A DNA stretch of 49,109 nt from positions 1-49,109 of the forward strand of contig JAMCYG010000016.1 of the NCBI GenBank assembly GCA_023473425.1. The letters are read 5' to 3'. The stretch is from Candidatus Martarchaeota archaeon. GTDB taxonomy: Archaea > Micrarchaeota > Micrarchaeia > Micrarchaeales > Micrarchaeaceae. This document shows positions 3,855 through 10,759 of this stretch, piece after piece. Position numbers and translations under genes: made by a program. The notes under the pieces were generated by a model. The model searched no databases. It had not been told where the DNA came from and saw nothing but the letters and a program-made list of their open reading frames with translations. Within the stretch, counting starts at the first letter, position 1. The number at the start of each line of letters is the position of its first letter.

Positions 3855-4898
3855 ATGGATATTAGCTCTATTGCAATTAAATCATACTTTTCTTCAGTTT
3901 ATGGGCTCCTATATCCATACCTTGGCAGCAGTGTGGCAAATGAAGCGCTGTCATTGCTGATAGGCATCGCGGTTTTCTGCATAATACTGGCCATAATGAT
4001 ATCGCTTTTCGGCATAATGTATGGCTGGGCCGAAAGAAAGGTGATAGCCAGGATGCAGTCGAGGCACGGCCCTACATATCTCGGGAAATTCGGCCTGCTG
4101 CAGAACGTTGCAGACCTGATAAAGCTGCTGTCAAAAGAGAACATACTGCCGGACAAAGCTGATAGGCGCATATTCCCGTTTGTGCTGCCTGCCGTTTTCG
4201 CCTCGTTTGCATTGATGCTGGCGTTCACCCCATTCACTCCATCGTTCGTAGGCATAGACACAAGCGTCGCTGTCATACTGGTCTTTGCGCTGCTTTCCAT
4301 TTCCCCTATTCTAATGTTCCTGGCCGGATGGACTAGCGGCAACAAGTATGGCTCGATAAGCGCGCAGAGGTCTGTTGCAATAATGATAAGCTACGAGATA
4401 CCGCTGATGTTGGTGGTTGTAGCAGCAGCCATGTCGGCTCACAGCCTCAATTTCATGAGCATAGTGAGCTCGCAGACACACCTGTGGAACATAGTAGCAA
4501 TGCCGATAGGTTTCGTTGTTTTCTTCGTAGTGCTTCTTGCAGAGCTAGAAAGGCCACCATTCGACCTGAAGGAGGCAGACAGCGAACTGATATCTGGCTG
4601 GCTAACTGATGTCAGCCCGCCGTACTATGCACTGGCCCTGTTGCTGGACTACGCACGAATGCTATTCGGCGTGCTTGTAATTTCTGTGATATTCCTTGGC
4701 GGCTGGCTCGGCCCTGCCCCGCTGCCGCCATATGCGTGGATGGCCATAAAGGTGGTGCTCCTCTCAGCAATAATAATAGCGTTCAGGGGCACATTCTTCA
4801 GGATGAGGCTCGACAGGCTCATAAGGGCAGGATGGAACTATCTGATGCCTCTTTCGATTCTGAACCTCTTGATAACATTTTTATTGTTTGTAAGGTAA
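3855..4898 (+). CDS. nuoH: NADH-quinone oxidoreductase subunit H (NuoH-like)
   Basis: Membrane subunit that forms much of the quinone pocket and joins the peripheral and membrane arms of complex I. The 347 residues carry about eight hydrophobic helices. Family motifs are clear: E60-R-K followed by R-H-G-P (residues 70-73), F-G-L-L-Q near 79-83, and the acidic loop E232-R-P-P-F-D-L ending in A-D-S-E-L-I-S-G. This is the first gene of a seven-gene block; nuoI follows 18 bases later. No nuoA-D genes precede it. The electron donor is not known because the input module is absent from the window. Confidence 0.95.
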   Translation: MDISSIAIKSYFSSVYGLLYPYLGSSVANEALSLLIGIAVFCIILAIMISLFGIMYGWAERKVIARMQSRHGPTYLGKFGLLQNVADLIKLLSKENILPDKADRRIFPFVLPAVFASFALMLAFTPFTPSFVGIDTSVAVILVFALLSISPILMFLAGWTSGNKYGSISAQRSVAIMISYEIPLMLVVVAAAMSAHSLNFMSIVSSQTHLWNIVAMPIGFVVFFVVLLAELERPPFDLKEADSELISGWLTDVSPPYYALALLLDYARMLFGVLVISVIFLGGWLGPAPLPPYAWMAIKVVLLSAIIIAFRGTFFRMRLDRLIRAGWNYLMPLSILNLLITFLLFVR

Positions 4899-4916
4899 GC
4901 GTTAATGGTGTGGTAG

Positions 4917-5288
4917 ATGGCTGTACAGGTAATAAGCCCTCTGGTTGAGGTGGCAAAGCAGGCGTTCCGCAAGCCGACCACTATAGAGTTTCCTGAGCAA
5001 CAGGAGCGCAGGACCGATAACTACAACGGCAAGCACAAGCTCGATATGAAGACATGCATAAGCTGCGGTGCATGCGCTAGGATATGCCCCAACCAGACAA
5101 TAACCATGGTAGACACCGATACAGAGAGGGGCACGAAGAAGATGCCTGAGATAAACTGGGAAAGGTGCCTGTTCTGCGCACTGTGTGAAGAGGTGTGCCC
5201 TACCGACTGCTTGATACTGACAAAGCAGACCGACTATGAGGTGTATGATCGCCGCGATCTCATAAAGAGGCCGGAAGAGCTCGAATAG
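4917..5288 (+). CDS. nuoI: NADH-quinone oxidoreductase subunit I (2x[4Fe-4S] ferredoxin)
   Basis: Peripheral-arm subunit that carries electrons to the last cluster before quinone. Two C-x2-C-x2-C-x3-C-P motifs bind two [4Fe-4S] clusters (N6a/N6b-like): C47, C50, C53, C57 and C84, C87, C90, C94. At 123 residues it is at the short end of the family. GGTG lies just upstream of the ATG. It is the only iron-sulfur subunit of the complex present here, embedded between membrane-arm genes as in many nuo/fpo operons. Confidence 0.95.
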   Translation: MAVQVISPLVEVAKQAFRKPTTIEFPEQQERRTDNYNGKHKLDMKTCISCGACARICPNQTITMVDTDTERGTKKMPEINWERCLFCALCEEVCPTDCLILTKQTDYEVYDRRDLIKRPEELE

Positions 5289-5313
5289 ACTCAAATAGAG
5301 TTTGTGTGGTTAA

Positions 5314-5796
5314 ATGTACTTATGGGTGTTCGCGTTAGTCGCCTTTCTTGAGCTAGCTGCAGCCGTGTCAGTTTACCTGCTCAAAAGTGTCATGCATGCG
5401 ACCATCGCGCTGGCCATGGTTTTTCTGTTTAACTCGCTCATGTTCCTGGTGCTTGGCCAGCCGCTGTTGGCGGTTATACAGGCTTTCGTAGTGATAGGCG
5501 GTATAGCTACATACTTAATAGTGGGCACGGCCACTGCCCAAAGGGTGGGATTCAAGCACGTAAGGGTTTCGGTGTTCGTAGCAATGCTTCTTCTCTTCAC
5601 TACAGTGCTTAACTATTCGATATACGGTACTAACTTCTCCAGCCTTCCAAAGAACAGCTTCTCAGCCACTGGAATAGAGGCCATGCTTTCGAGCATAGGG
5701 CTGCTGTATATTATAGTGCTCATGCTGTTCGGCGTGTCTATCGGATCGATAGTATTGTTCAAGAGGTTCAAGAAGATTGAGGCAAGAGGGGAATGA
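5314..5796 (+). CDS. nuoJ: NADH-quinone oxidoreductase subunit J
   Basis: A 160-residue, five-helix membrane protein with the NuoJ hallmark helix 3 (Q-A-F-V-V-I-G-G-I-A-T-Y), which contains the pi-bulge segment important for coupling. The last helix ends in I-G-S-I-V-L-F-K-R-F. Start ATG 5314. Its stop is one base before the nuoK start, implying coupled translation. Confidence 0.92.
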   Translation: MYLWVFALVAFLELAAAVSVYLLKSVMHATIALAMVFLFNSLMFLVLGQPLLAVIQAFVVIGGIATYLIVGTATAQRVGFKHVRVSVFVAMLLLFTTVLNYSIYGTNFSSLPKNSFSATGIEAMLSSIGLLYIIVLMLFGVSIGSIVLFKRFKKIEARGE

Positions 5797-5797
5797 G

Positions 5798-6097
5798 ATG
5801 AGCATGCTTCTGTTCTTGATACTGTCTCTCGAGGTCTTTGCGGTAGGGCTAAGTGGCCTCATAGCAAGCAGGCATTTCCTCATAATGGTATTCTCGATAG
5901 AGCTGATGCTAGTCTCCAGCACCCTTGTAGCCACCACCTTCTACTACTACGGCGTCAGCTCTAATATAGGCATATTCCTTTTTGCAGTGTGGGCAGTCAT
6001 GGCGTCAGAAGTTATTGCAGTTGTTGCTGTGTACAGATACCTTCAGAGGGCTGATACAGGCATGGATGTGAAGAAGCTTTCGGATATGAAGTGGTAG
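5798..6097 (+). CDS. nuoK: NADH-quinone oxidoreductase subunit K
   Basis: A 99-residue, three-helix membrane subunit homologous to MrpC. Both functionally important membrane glutamates are visible, in F-S-I-E-L-M-L and in M-A-S-E-V-I-A. I place the start at ATG 5798, one base after the nuoJ stop and with GAATGAG just upstream; an upstream extension overlapping nuoJ is possible but would give an atypical N terminus. nuoL begins one base after its stop codon. Confidence 0.93.
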   Translation: MSMLLFLILSLEVFAVGLSGLIASRHFLIMVFSIELMLVSSTLVATTFYYYGVSSNIGIFLFAVWAVMASEVIAVVAVYRYLQRADTGMDVKKLSDMKW

Positions 6098-6098
6098 C

Positions 6099-7907
6099 AT
6101 GCTCGCAATTTTAGTCATAGCGCCGCTGATCGTCTCATCCATTCTAGCGCTGCTGCTCATCAGGCACGGCACTATAGTGAAGTATGTGTCACTCATCGGG
6201 AGTCTTGGGTCTCTCGCATTTATTTATGCCGTGTCGCAGAATGCCGTATCGGCGCAGAGCATGCATTGGTTCAGCATAGGCAGCCTGACTGTCAATATAG
6301 CGACATATACATATCCGCTGAACATGCTCCTGCTGTGGCTCGTTGGCATAATTACCCCTTTGATATTTTCGTATTCCATAGGATTCATGGAGAGGAACAG
6401 TGAGCAGGGCAGGTTCTTCTTCGAGATGGGGCTGTTCGCTTCCGGCATGATGCTGTTCGCCATTGCTGGCAGCCTGATAACAATGTTCATAGGCTGGGAG
6501 CTGCTCGGAATAACAAGCTACCTTCTCATAGGCTTCTGGTATGCAAAGTCCGATGCAGCTCCTGCAGCGAGGAAGGCGATAACTATAGTGCTGTTCGGGG
6601 ACATACTGATGCTTATAGCCATAGTAATGATATGGAATTCTTATCACACGTTCAGCATAGGGCAGATAGTATCCAATCCCAGCAATGCTCTGTATATACC
6701 ATTGCTGCTGATCATGGTTGCAGCGTTCACCAAGTCTGCTCAGTTCCCGTTCCATGAGTGGCTGCCTGCAGCAATGGCCGGGCCGACTCCGGTATCGGCA
6801 TTCCTGCACTCCTCCACAATGGTAAAAGCAGGCGTATTTCTTATCGCATCGCTGTTTACGCTCTACATGGATGCACATTTGCTTCCTGTGATACTTATAG
6901 TGGGCTTAATCAGTGCAGCATTCGGGGCATCTAACGCCGCAGCCGAGAGGCACATAAAGAAGATACTGGCATATTCAACAATCGAGGACCTGGGCCTGAT
7001 GTTCGTTGCCCTCGGCCTCGGTGCATTCGCCGCTGCGGTTCTTCTCTTCATAGTGCAGGCGTTCTACAAGGCGCTGCTGTTCATGGATGCAGGCGCCCTT
7101 ATGCGCACAAACAGCGAGAACTACGACATATTTCGCATCTATGGCGCTAGGATGAAGAAGACTTTGCTGGTCGCAACCCTGTTCGGCGTGGTGTCAATTG
7201 CCGGAATATTCCCTCTCGGAGGATTCTTCGCAAAGGCATCGATAGGATCCGCTGCTGCATCTACGAATCTCATTGCATATATGGTACTGTTGGCAATCGA
7301 GCTTGTTACAGGGTTCTACATATTCCGCTGGTATATAATCCCGATGCGCTCCCCCCCACAGTCTGATACAACGCGCATGCGGAACTCCTACAAGCTGCTG
7401 CCAAAAAGCATGATCGCGCCATCGATAATACTTTCTGCGCTTACGGCCGCCTCTGCCCTGGCCTATTATTACCTGCCTATAATATTGACCCAATCGCCTT
7501 ACGTGCCTGGCTATGTATTCGGCGCATATACTGGCGCAGCGCCTACGATAGGCATAGCAGATGCTGCTGCGGAGACGGCATTCATAGCTATAGGCGCGTA
7601 TGCCGCTTATCTGTTGTATTCACGGCGCAGGGCGCCAGCTCTGTACACTCACAGGCTGCTAAGCCGCGCTGTGTACAACGCGCCTCTGGTCAACAGGGCG
7701 TACTCCGCGTTTGCAGCCGCGTTTGCAGCCATAGGCTCTGGCATATACTGGTTCGACTCAGTGCTGTACTCTATTTTCAGGGCCGTTGCACTCTCGGCCA
7801 TTGAGATGGGTGCTGTTCTCAGGAGGATGGTCAACGGGCAGACCAGTACGTACCTTCTCGCGTTCGCCTTAGGCGTGGTTATAATCATAATGCTTTATGT
7901 GAAGTAG
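6099..7907 (+). CDS. nuoL: NADH-quinone oxidoreductase subunit L (antiporter-like)
   Basis: The 602-residue distal antiporter-like subunit, of near-normal length and with a C-terminal extension containing the lateral helix and a final anchor. The key charged residues are retained: E134 in the helix-5 motif G-W-E-L-L-G and K212 in T-K-S-A-Q-F-P-F-H-E-W-L-P, the equivalents of E. coli E144 and K229. H219 is also present. Translation is probably coupled to nuoK (one-base gap). This retention contrasts with the two following antiporter-like subunits. Confidence 0.95.
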   Translation: MLAILVIAPLIVSSILALLLIRHGTIVKYVSLIGSLGSLAFIYAVSQNAVSAQSMHWFSIGSLTVNIATYTYPLNMLLLWLVGIITPLIFSYSIGFMERNSEQGRFFFEMGLFASGMMLFAIAGSLITMFIGWELLGITSYLLIGFWYAKSDAAPAARKAITIVLFGDILMLIAIVMIWNSYHTFSIGQIVSNPSNALYIPLLLIMVAAFTKSAQFPFHEWLPAAMAGPTPVSAFLHSSTMVKAGVFLIASLFTLYMDAHLLPVILIVGLISAAFGASNAAAERHIKKILAYSTIEDLGLMFVALGLGAFAAAVLLFIVQAFYKALLFMDAGALMRTNSENYDIFRIYGARMKKTLLVATLFGVVSIAGIFPLGGFFAKASIGSAAASTNLIAYMVLLAIELVTGFYIFRWYIIPMRSPPQSDTTRMRNSYKLLPKSMIAPSIILSALTAASALAYYYLPIILTQSPYVPGYVFGAYTGAAPTIGIADAAAETAFIAIGAYAAYLLYSRRRAPALYTHRLLSRAVYNAPLVNRAYSAFAAAFAAIGSGIYWFDSVLYSIFRAVALSAIEMGAVLRRMVNGQTSTYLLAFALGVVIIIMLYVK

Positions 7908-7914
7908 TTGTTGG

Positions 7915-9324
7915 ATGATGCAAATGCAAGGCGCGCTTATGCTTGTGACGTTCCTTCCGTTCGTGTTTCTAGCCGTAGCCCTGATTGTTGACAAAGAGCG
8001 CAGTCTTGCGGCAGCCGCCATATCCAGCGCAGTGTCCATGGCTATCCTGATATATATTACAGTGTTCTCTTCCATCAATGCAACCGAGTCATTCAGCTAC
8101 ATATCTATCATACCTATCTCGTTCACTCTGCGCCTTAGCCCCGCTTCATTCATGCTGCTCATAATGTCATACATAGTGCTGATAGCCGCTTCAATAGCAG
8201 GTAACCACGAGAGGCAGTCTCAGAAGCTTGCGGCATCTCTCATACTTCTGCTTCAGGTGGCAGCTTCCGGGCTTTTCCTCTCCGGCAACCTGTTCTTATA
8301 TTTCATATTCTGGGACGTAGGAGTAGTTTCCTCATTCTTCTTCCTATATTCGCTTGGTTCGCCGCAGAGGGGCCCAGCCGCGATGAAGTTCCTTATATAC
8401 GAGATGTTCGCAAGCGTATTCCTCCTTCTAGGCATAATAACAATCTATTTCGGCACGCCCGTTCATTCGTTCAACATAGCATATATAGCTGCGCACGCAG
8501 CGTCTATTCCCGTTGCGTCGCAGATCACAGTGTTCGTGCTTCTCGCTGTAGCGTTCCTGACAAATATGGGCATATTCCCACTCCACTTCTGGCTCCCTGA
8601 TGCATATACCGAGGCATCTACGCAAGGATCGATGGTTCTCTCAGCGATACTCTCGAAGTTCGGTGCATTCGGCATATTTCTGCTGTTCGCTATCCTGCCT
8701 GCAGGCGCAGAGTTGGCGAAATATATAGCGCTTCTTGGAGGCATATCGGCATTTTATGCGGCATTCCTTATGATGAGCCACAAGGACATAAAGCGCGTCA
8801 TGTCCTACACATCTATAATGGAAATGGGGATAATACTAATAGGGCTCAGCTCACTCAATGTCATAGGAACCTATGGTGCCATCTACGCTATGCTTGCTCA
8901 TGGGTTGACAATAGCGCTCATGTTCCTGGCTGCCGGCTCTATGGTGCATGTTTTTGGCACTCGTGACATAAGGACTCTTGCCGGAATGGTCTCAAACGCA
9001 AAGGCAGCTGCGTACTCATTCCTGCTTTCTACATTTGCAGCGACAGGGCTGCCTCTTACTACAGGATTCATCGCTGACCTTCTGATATTCATAGGCGCCT
9101 ACTCTGCCTTCGGCATTCTCGGTGTGGTGCCCCTGCTGGCTATAGTGCTGTTCGGCGCATATATGTACTTTGCCATAGAGAAGTCTGTCCTATCGACTAA
9201 GAAGGAATCTGTGGCAGTGGCGCGCACAAGCAATGGTCAGGCATTCGGCTACGCCCTGCTTGTCGGGTCTATACTGCTCTTCGGCATGTTTCCGTTCCTG
9301 CTGCTCGGTCTGGTAAAAATATGA
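7915..9324 (+). CDS. nuoM: NADH-quinone oxidoreductase subunit M (antiporter-like), altered key residues
   Basis: A 469-residue antiporter-like subunit of about 14 helices. Family motifs W-L-P-D-A-Y and G-S-M-V-L-S-A-I-L-S-K (helix-8 lysine) are present. By motif alignment the helix-5 glutamate is aspartate (D134 in F-W-D-V-G), and the helix-7 lysine that normally precedes the P-x-H-x-W-L-P-D segment is asparagine (N217). Starts at 7915, 7918 or 7924 are all possible. Assignment to NuoM rather than NuoN rests on order and length; another MrpD-like label would not change the conclusion. Confidence 0.92.
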   Translation: MMQMQGALMLVTFLPFVFLAVALIVDKERSLAAAAISSAVSMAILIYITVFSSINATESFSYISIIPISFTLRLSPASFMLLIMSYIVLIAASIAGNHERQSQKLAASLILLLQVAASGLFLSGNLFLYFIFWDVGVVSSFFFLYSLGSPQRGPAAMKFLIYEMFASVFLLLGIITIYFGTPVHSFNIAYIAAHAASIPVASQITVFVLLAVAFLTNMGIFPLHFWLPDAYTEASTQGSMVLSAILSKFGAFGIFLLFAILPAGAELAKYIALLGGISAFYAAFLMMSHKDIKRVMSYTSIMEMGIILIGLSSLNVIGTYGAIYAMLAHGLTIALMFLAAGSMVHVFGTRDIRTLAGMVSNAKAAAYSFLLSTFAATGLPLTTGFIADLLIFIGAYSAFGILGVVPLLAIVLFGAYMYFAIEKSVLSTKKESVAVARTSNGQAFGYALLVGSILLFGMFPFLLLGLVKI

Positions 9325-9334
9325 TGGTGCAAAA

Positions 9335-10759
9335 ATGTATTCCATTTCAATCGGATATGTGATAATCGCCTTAATCGCGCTCATTCCAATAGGTGCAACT
9401 GCCGGCCTTTTCGCAAAAAGGAAGAAGGCGTGGTTTTACACAAGCGCAACCCTTCTTGTTACAATCGCGCTACTCTCCCTGTTCCTTCTGGCATACCAAG
9501 CCAGCTTCACCCTGCTGCAGATATTCAGGTTCTACCCATTCTCAGAGCTTATGACCGCAGTTTTTGCATTCCTGCTAATAGCTATCGATGCTCTATCCTA
9601 TGAATACTCGGCTGACTTCATCTCATTTTCCCTGTTCTTCGGACTCTCAATAACAGGCATGCTCCTCGTCGTGATGGCCAACTCTCTGATAACCCTGCTC
9701 ATAGGACTAGAGCTCATGGGTGTACCTACAGTTTTCATGATTCTTGCACATGGCCGCAGGCATATAGAGGCCGCAATAAAGCTTTTCGTGCTCAGTGCGC
9801 TCGCAATCTCCCTGCTGGCGTTTGCGATAGCCTTGGTATCGGTTTACAATCCAACGCTCTCGATAAGCGCTGCTCTGGAAGCGAGCCCATTGGCGAGTAC
9901 TGGCGTGCTACTTCCACTGGCAATTGTGCTATTTGCAGCAGCGCTTCTGACTGAGGCGGCTGCGTTCCCTTTCAACCTCTGGGTGCCTGATGTCTACGAA
10001 GGCGCACCAGGGCACGTAACTGCCATGCTGGCTGGCATAAACAAGAAGGTTGCGTTTGTAGCGCTTATAGAAGTATTCTTCTCCATGATATTATATTTCG
10101 GTTACGCTTTTCAGCCGATATTCGTACTGCTGTCCGTAGCAACTATGTTCTTCGGCAATCTGGTCGCGCTTGTGCAGACCAATGTCAAGAGGATGATGGC
10201 GTATTCGTCCATATCGCAGGCCGGTTACATACTGGTGGGAATATCAGCGTCAACCGCAGCCGGACTCTCTTCCAGCATATTCTACATGATCGCGCATGCG
10301 GTCATGATAATAGGCGCATTCACAGTAATTATATGGCTTGATGGGAAAAACATAAGGACAGTCAACGAGTACTCTGGCGTGTGGTCGAAGAACCCGCTGG
10401 CCGCATTCTCCCTTACGGTATTCATGCTGTCGATGATAGGTGTTCCGCCGCTGATCGGCTTCATAGGCAAGTTCCTGCTGTTCTCAAGTGCAGTAGGCGC
10501 CAACCTGCTTTACCTGGCATTCCTCGGCATAATAAACAGCGTGATATCGGTGTACTACTATGCCAGGGTAATCCTCTCCATGTATGCCGGAAGGCGGTAT
10601 GAGCGCAAGGTGAGGATGGCAGACATCGTATCAGTTGTGGTAATAACCATGCTGGTAGTGACATTTGCGTTCGGAATATTTCCCGGGCCGCTGATGCACG
10701 CTACCTCGCTCGCAGGCAATTCGGTAATCAGTGCATGGCCGGCTCCTGGTGCTCCATGA
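9335..10759 (+). CDS. nuoN: NADH-quinone oxidoreductase subunit N (antiporter-like), altered key residue
   Basis: A 474-residue antiporter-like subunit that closes the operon. E126 in G-L-E-L-M-G matches the helix-5 glutamate, and K237/K238 sit where the helix-8 lysine is expected. The helix-7 lysine position is occupied by E207 (L-T-E-A-A-A-F-P-F-N), and the usual following histidine is N214. W-V-P-D-V-Y-E-G-A-P is typical of NuoN. GGTG lies five bases before the ATG. The stop is 12 bases from the convergent reductase gene, so the operon ends here. Confidence 0.93.
   Translation: MYSISIGYVIIALIALIPIGATAGLFAKRKKAWFYTSATLLVTIALLSLFLLAYQASFTLLQIFRFYPFSELMTAVFAFLLIAIDALSYEYSADFISFSLFFGLSITGMLLVVMANSLITLLIGLELMGVPTVFMILAHGRRHIEAAIKLFVLSALAISLLAFAIALVSVYNPTLSISAALEASPLASTGVLLPLAIVLFAAALLTEAAAFPFNLWVPDVYEGAPGHVTAMLAGINKKVAFVALIEVFFSMILYFGYAFQPIFVLLSVATMFFGNLVALVQTNVKRMMAYSSISQAGYILVGISASTAAGLSSSIFYMIAHAVMIIGAFTVIIWLDGKNIRTVNEYSGVWSKNPLAAFSLTVFMLSMIGVPPLIGFIGKFLLFSSAVGANLLYLAFLGIINSVISVYYYARVILSMYAGRRYERKVRMADIVSVVVITMLVVTFAFGIFPGPLMHATSLAGNSVISAWPAPGAP

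Follow-up and report, generated by a model that had tools for sequence, protein, structure and literature searches.

Loss of the TM5-Glu/TM7-Lys pair and retention of proton-route residues in NuoM and NuoN of an 11-subunit complex I from Micrarchaeota

In models of complex I, the pair of a TM5 glutamate and a TM7 lysine in the antiporter-like subunits is the switch that relays the signal along the membrane arm. The initial annotation of the window (the whole stretch of 49,109 nucleotides analyzed here) claimed that two of the three subunits, NuoM and NuoN, lack key residues of the proton path, among them the TM7 lysine, and suggested a changed stoichiometry or an adaptation to a steep pH gradient.

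The genes nuoH, I, J, K, L, M, and N follow one another in that order on the + strand (3855-10759). The first four (3855..6097) encode NuoH and NuoK with their coupling residues kept, namely the carboxylates of NuoH on the quinone side and both membrane glutamates of NuoK (E. coli E36 and E72). NuoJ (5314-5796) was assigned by its position and a weak alignment only; the tyrosine Y59 of E. coli is not conserved in it, and the window has VIGG for YAGA. The nuoA, B, C, and D genes lie together on another contig (C8) of the same genome, so that NuoA, B, C, D, H, I, J, K, L, M, and N are all encoded and the complex is of the 11-subunit type. No match to NuoF (PF01512) was found in the 0.73 Mb assembly, which is 89% complete, and the control genomes were positive. 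Complex I of 11 subunits without the NADH module has been reported for Micrarchaeota (PMC5864196) and Thermoplasmatales (PMC5155288), and ferredoxin was suggested as the electron source of the NuoEFG-less enzyme (PMC5864196, PMC5155288). The Thermoplasmatales complex (nuoABCDHIJJKLMN in Cuniculiplasma) has the same kinds of subunits and likewise no NADH module, but two J genes were reported there and one was seen here. The genome also encodes a flavoprotein resembling succinate dehydrogenase and a subunit of an A/V-type ATP synthase, and neither cytochrome bd (PF01654) nor heme-copper oxidase (PF00115) was found in its 89% complete assembly.

The three genes of interest are open on the + strand. 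By profile score the products of nuoL (6099..7907) and nuoN (9335..10759; 474 aa, intact) are NuoL and NuoN, and that of nuoM (7915..9324; 469 aa, intact) scored 272.8 bits with TIGR01972, above the cut-off. MAFFT alignment of NuoL, NuoM, and NuoN against E. coli, which was used for residue numbering, bore out the residue assignments of the initial annotation. In NuoM, D134 (8314..8316) and N217 (8563..8565) correspond to E. coli E144 and K234; in NuoN, E207 (9953..9955) and N214 (9974..9976) correspond to K217 and H224; NuoL keeps E134 (6498-6500) and K212 (6732-6734), the counterparts of E144 and K229. The canonical gate of a TM5 glutamate and a TM7 lysine was thus present in NuoL and absent from NuoM (D134/N217) and from NuoN (E126/E207), where the TM5 glutamate E126 (9710..9712; E. 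coli E133) is kept, and the claimed loss of the Glu-Lys pair in two of the three subunits held. The alignment disclosed further changes beyond those annotated: in NuoM the TM12 acid is D388 (9076..9078) for E407, the TM10 histidine H322 is replaced by E303 (8821..8823), and a TM6 acid, E163 (8401..8403; E. coli T178), covaries with N217 as described below; in NuoN, Q295 stands for H305, and an extra lysine, K238, follows the TM8 lysine K237 (10043..10048 for both; K237 is E. coli K247) in the NuoM/MbsH register.

Among the residues of the main proton route, the TM8 lysine and the TM12 lysine or acid are present in all three subunits: K248 (8656..8658; E. coli K265) and D388 in NuoM, K237 and K379 (10469..10471; E. 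coli K395) in NuoN, and K243 (6825-6827) and K379 (7233-7235) in NuoL. Compared with their bacterial counterparts, the NuoM and NuoN of the window share the fold, the TM8 lysine, the TM12 acid or lysine, the NuoN TM5 glutamate, and the L-M-N gene order; they differ by the TM7 Lys to Glu and His to Asn replacements and the extra TM8 lysine in NuoN, and by TM7 Lys to Asn, TM5 and TM12 Glu to Asp, TM10 His to Glu, and the new TM6 glutamate in NuoM. The initial annotation had described the replaced residues as central to proton translocation. This stands for the core gate pair, which is gone, and does not extend to the main route residues of TM8 and TM12, which are kept. Because they are kept, the change lies in the TM5-TM7 gating pair and not in the conduction path; judged by the aligned residues, the missing element is the gate.

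A compensating lysine within TM7 was sought in both proteins. In AlphaFold models built from 39-member alignments, NuoM N217 lies at the end of TM7a (H200-218; mean pLDDT 93.6) and NuoN E207 at the end of TM7a (H192-207; pLDDT 93.8), each just before the conserved proline break and at the normal position of the lysine; the structures closest to the models were solved NuoN and NuoM, with TM-scores of about 0.86-0.93. Neither model-defined TM7a contains a lysine or an arginine, and no lysine occurs elsewhere in either TM7. A lysine shifted inside the helix was therefore rejected, and the absence of such a residue agrees with the initial annotation. The oddness of the replacements was assessed by swapping single residues in silico and rescoring against NCBIfam models. 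Restoring lysine at NuoN 207 raised every listed NCBIfam NuoN model by about 2 to 4 bits (TIGR01770 from 157.1 to 161.4), with one exception, the MbsH-like model discussed below; restoring the histidine added 6.2 bits with TIGR01770, and lysine at NuoM 217 raised TIGR01972 from 166.7 to 170.5 (+3.8). As a control, loss of the kept TM8 lysine brought the NuoN and NuoM model scores down. These scores, together with recurrence in up to 73 related genomes, show that the residue changes are not due to chance.

NuoL, NuoM, and NuoN were extracted from 52 and then from up to 72 relatives belonging to two families of one order, that of the window (f1) and the other (f2). The gate changes are not peculiar to the genome of the window and are more general than the initial annotation stated. 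The TM7 position of NuoN is acidic in 67 of 68 genomes (E 52, D 15, G 1), in general in both families, and the histidine position (E. coli H224) is N in 64, D in 3, and S in 1 of the 68. The TM5 glutamate (70/70), the TM8 lysine (67/67), and the TM12 lysine (67/67) of NuoN are invariant in the window and the relatives, and the extra lysine K238 is present in 62 of 67. NuoM is more varied. Its TM5 acid is Asp in 53 of 55 f1 genomes and Glu in all 18 of f2; among the 55 f1 genomes its TM7 residue is N 37 times, K 17 times, and G once, and it is K throughout f2. The TM8 lysine is kept in 72 of 73 genomes, the TM12 position is an acid in 72 (Asp in 69 of 73), and in 72 of 73 an acid, E or D, has taken the place of the TM10 histidine. 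The NuoL gate is standard in nearly all relatives, and the NuoL TM12 lysine (E. coli K399) is kept in 54 of 55 f1 genomes. The charged axis has thus been altered at different elements in different branches.

Several features set f2 apart. In all 14 of its NuoL sequences (for example at loci L086, L076, L078, and L088) the TM12 lysine has given way to N, S, D, or A, and a second TM5 glutamate occurs in NuoM at the position of E. coli L147 in 18/18. Unlike the L-M-N order of f1, most f2 genomes carry nuoM away from an adjacent nuoL-nuoN pair, in many cases on the opposite strand or a different contig. An outgroup was sought in further families of the class and rejected, as the PF00361 homologs of five genomes resemble Mrp/hydrogenase-type proteins and none is a NuoN; the TM7 lysine was present in all six of these homologs with a readable TM7 motif. 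One partial NuoN relative turned up among viral contigs, and the relatives listed in a plasmid search were mainly bacterial. No report on the gate residues of Micrarchaeota complex I was found in the openly accessible literature.

The NuoN state has a precedent. In MbsH of Pyrococcus furiosus (PDB 6U8Y chain H), the stretch GLAVEAELFPLNAW...VVKAG carries E in place of K and N in place of H. Side by side, chain 6U8Y_H has GLAVEAELFPLNAWAPDAY...FVVKAG and the NuoN of the window LLTEAAAFPFNLWVPDVY...INKKVAF, and both show the TM7 glutamate followed by P-x-N in place of P-x-H (E207...PFN in NuoN, E219...PLN in MbsH). PRK08377, named NADH dehydrogenase subunit N, was the sole NCBIfam model shown for NuoN that lost score when the lysine or the histidine was restored, and it fits the MbsH type. 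In the MBS structure E219 and K393 lie at helix kinks, K250 lies on the axis, and MbsH superposes on Nqo14, which occupies the NuoN position (PMC7684303). Counted from the conserved tryptophan, the TM8 lysine is at +21 in E. coli NuoN (K247) and at +22 in NuoM (K265) and MbsH (K250); in this order NuoN carries a lysine at each of the two positions, K237 at +21 in all genomes and K238 at +22 in those 62 of 67. MbsH thus resembles the NuoN of the window in E for K, N for H, a TM8 lysine in the K238 register, and the TM12 lysine; unlike MbsH, the window protein also retains the NuoN-type TM8 lysine K237, and MBS has two antiporter-like subunits, compared with three here, and a sodium module. The likeness is local, because the protein scores as a NuoN: 282.4 bits with TIGR01770, under that model's own cut-off of 332.6, and 150.5 bits with PRK08377, whose cut-off of 645 it falls well short of. 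The NuoN double change is therefore found outside this order, in a subunit whose pumping is a proposal from structure and not a per-subunit measurement. Four genomes carry E207 with T, S, or L in the place of K238, so that a strict partnership of K238 with E207 was rejected.

Published mutants separate the two subunits. When Thermus modules were dissected, the Glu-Lys pairs proved to be about 14 and 22 A away from the main route, whose barrier they modulate; replacement of the pair glutamate raised proton conduction, and replacement of the middle or terminal lysine blocked it partly or fully (PMC11496545). The K217A variant of E. coli NuoN pumped fully in proteoliposomes (109%) with the electron rate roughly halved, E133A was near normal, and K247A and K395A, whose equivalents are both kept in the window, were severely reduced (PMC13073174). 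On these mutant data, including the full pumping of K217A, the NuoN variant would be easily compatible with pumping. NuoM is, by the same comparison, a real puzzle: its E141, K232, and E405 were essential for catalysis in Paracoccus denitrificans, and K263Q retained 18% activity (PMC9802314); the TM7 lysine is essential in E. coli too.

A possible answer came from a covariation scan of all columns of the three subunits against the state of NuoM TM7. A single column matched perfectly, the TM6 position of E. coli T178, which is Glu where TM7 has N or G and Ser where it has Lys (53/53, then 73/73 genomes). In the window this residue, E163, lies one helical turn (four residues) ahead of the site equivalent to NuoL D168 (E. 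coli D178), and with that spacing it should face the same way. In the pair network of NuoL (D166/K216 in Nqo12; PMC11496545), D168 supplies the acid. The coupled acid E163 is therefore the best candidate, on sequence grounds, for a replacement of the lost NuoM lysine. In the best tree 14 Lys-bearing f1 members are nested among the Asn-bearing ones, and a single origin of the NuoM asparagine was not rejected (p-AU 0.445), so the covariation probably rests on one branch: the Lys to Asn change with E163 was probably one evolutionary event and not many, possibly followed by joint reversal.

Selection on the proteins was gauged from dN/dS between the window and its sister genome (L 0.104, M 0.112, N 0.092) and in nearly all other close pairs (0.055-0.144 for the three subunits). 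NuoM and NuoN are under strong purifying selection, comparable to that on NuoL. One relative departs from this picture of conservation in its residues. In genome G027 (L058 and L105; NuoL/M/N at L058 562-5164, frames open), NuoL has lost H254 (L), K342 (T), and K399 (I); NuoM has S in TM5, G in TM7, Q in TM8, G in TM10, and Y in TM12; NuoN has G in TM7. Conserved charged residues were lost there at 13 of 41 sites and uncharged ones at 24 of 211 (Fisher p 0.0018), with NuoH, NuoK, and NuoD kept, and G027 may possibly carry a natural non-pumping complex I. The window and the other relatives showed no excess loss of charged residues.

Altogether we favor, with a probability of roughly 0.6, a working NuoEFG-less 11-subunit complex I membrane arm in which the gate has been rebuilt and the proton route kept, and we infer that the complex with the remodelled gate still pumps protons. 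The TM5-Glu/TM7-Lys gate would have been rebuilt in NuoN and in the NuoM of part of f1. In NuoN it would have become an acid-acid site (E126 with E207) with the extra TM8 lysine K238, in a layout resembling MbsH; in NuoM the TM5 acid D134 would stand without a lysine partner and the TM6 acid E163 would appear instead, and NuoL would retain the standard Glu-Lys pair. A proton-sharing carboxyl pair may then do the switching done elsewhere by ion-pair opening. A more far-reaching proposal, that the Glu-Lys pair is dispensable and that this order pumps with carboxyl pairs, TM5 with TM7 in NuoN and TM5 with the new TM6 acid in NuoM, we hold tentatively, at somewhat less than even odds. The altered stoichiometry or adaptation to a pH gradient suggested in the initial annotation is not required by the data.

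Other explanations of the same residues were weighed. The acidic NuoN TM7 could have been inherited, the gene cluster having come from a donor such as Thermoplasmata, and have no special meaning in Micrarchaeota; several Micrarchaeota energy genes cluster with Thermoplasmatales, which likewise have the NuoEFG-less complex (PMC5864196, PMC5155288), and both families of the order already have E or D in NuoN as the general state. This account seems unlikely, and the NuoM Lys to Asn change, being confined to part of f1, is not explained by a donor. That pumping has ceased in the NuoM and/or NuoN modules, giving fewer protons per electron pair as would suit a low-energy symbiont, seems quite unlikely to us, although the lysine equivalent to NuoM K234 is indispensable in P. 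denitrificans (PMC9802314) and in E. coli, G027 lacks nearly all protonatable gate and path residues of NuoM and several of NuoL in frames that stay open, and the energy yield may be low because no bd or heme-copper terminal oxidase was found in the genome of the window. Stoichiometry was unchanged at four protons in every active engineered ND4 variant of P. denitrificans (PMC9802314), the TM8/TM12 route residues are conserved in the NuoM and NuoN of almost all relatives, and selection on both is as strong as on NuoL.

Two further readings fared worse. Acid mine drainage and hot springs are the sources of the Micrarchaeota genomes described with this complex (PMC5864196). In acid habitats the replacements, which add acids or remove lysines, might adjust pKa values to a steep pH gradient. 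We consider this very unlikely, since the NuoL pair is kept, the NuoM of f2 retains both Glu and Lys, and MbsH of P. furiosus, a species that is no acidophile, shows the same pair of changes as NuoN. Decay of the antiporter-like subunits by drift in a reduced genome would accord with the small size of about 0.73 Mb and with the degenerate pump residues of G027; it was rejected on the dN/dS of about 0.1 in NuoM and NuoN, and the intact frames, the invariant route residues, and the lack of excess charged-residue loss in the window and the other relatives likewise make it extremely improbable.

The remodelled gate thus appears in an archaeal order that lacks the pair in one or two of three subunits, in combinations that vary by branch and under strong purifying selection. 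If the proposal of carboxyl-pair pumping were true, electrostatic-wave models would need a proton-sharing acid pair as a switch. The order also offers ready-made variants for laboratory enzymes, K217E+H224N+I248K in NuoN and K234N+T178E+E144D in NuoM, which would probe whether pumping or rate, or neither of them, depends on the pair.
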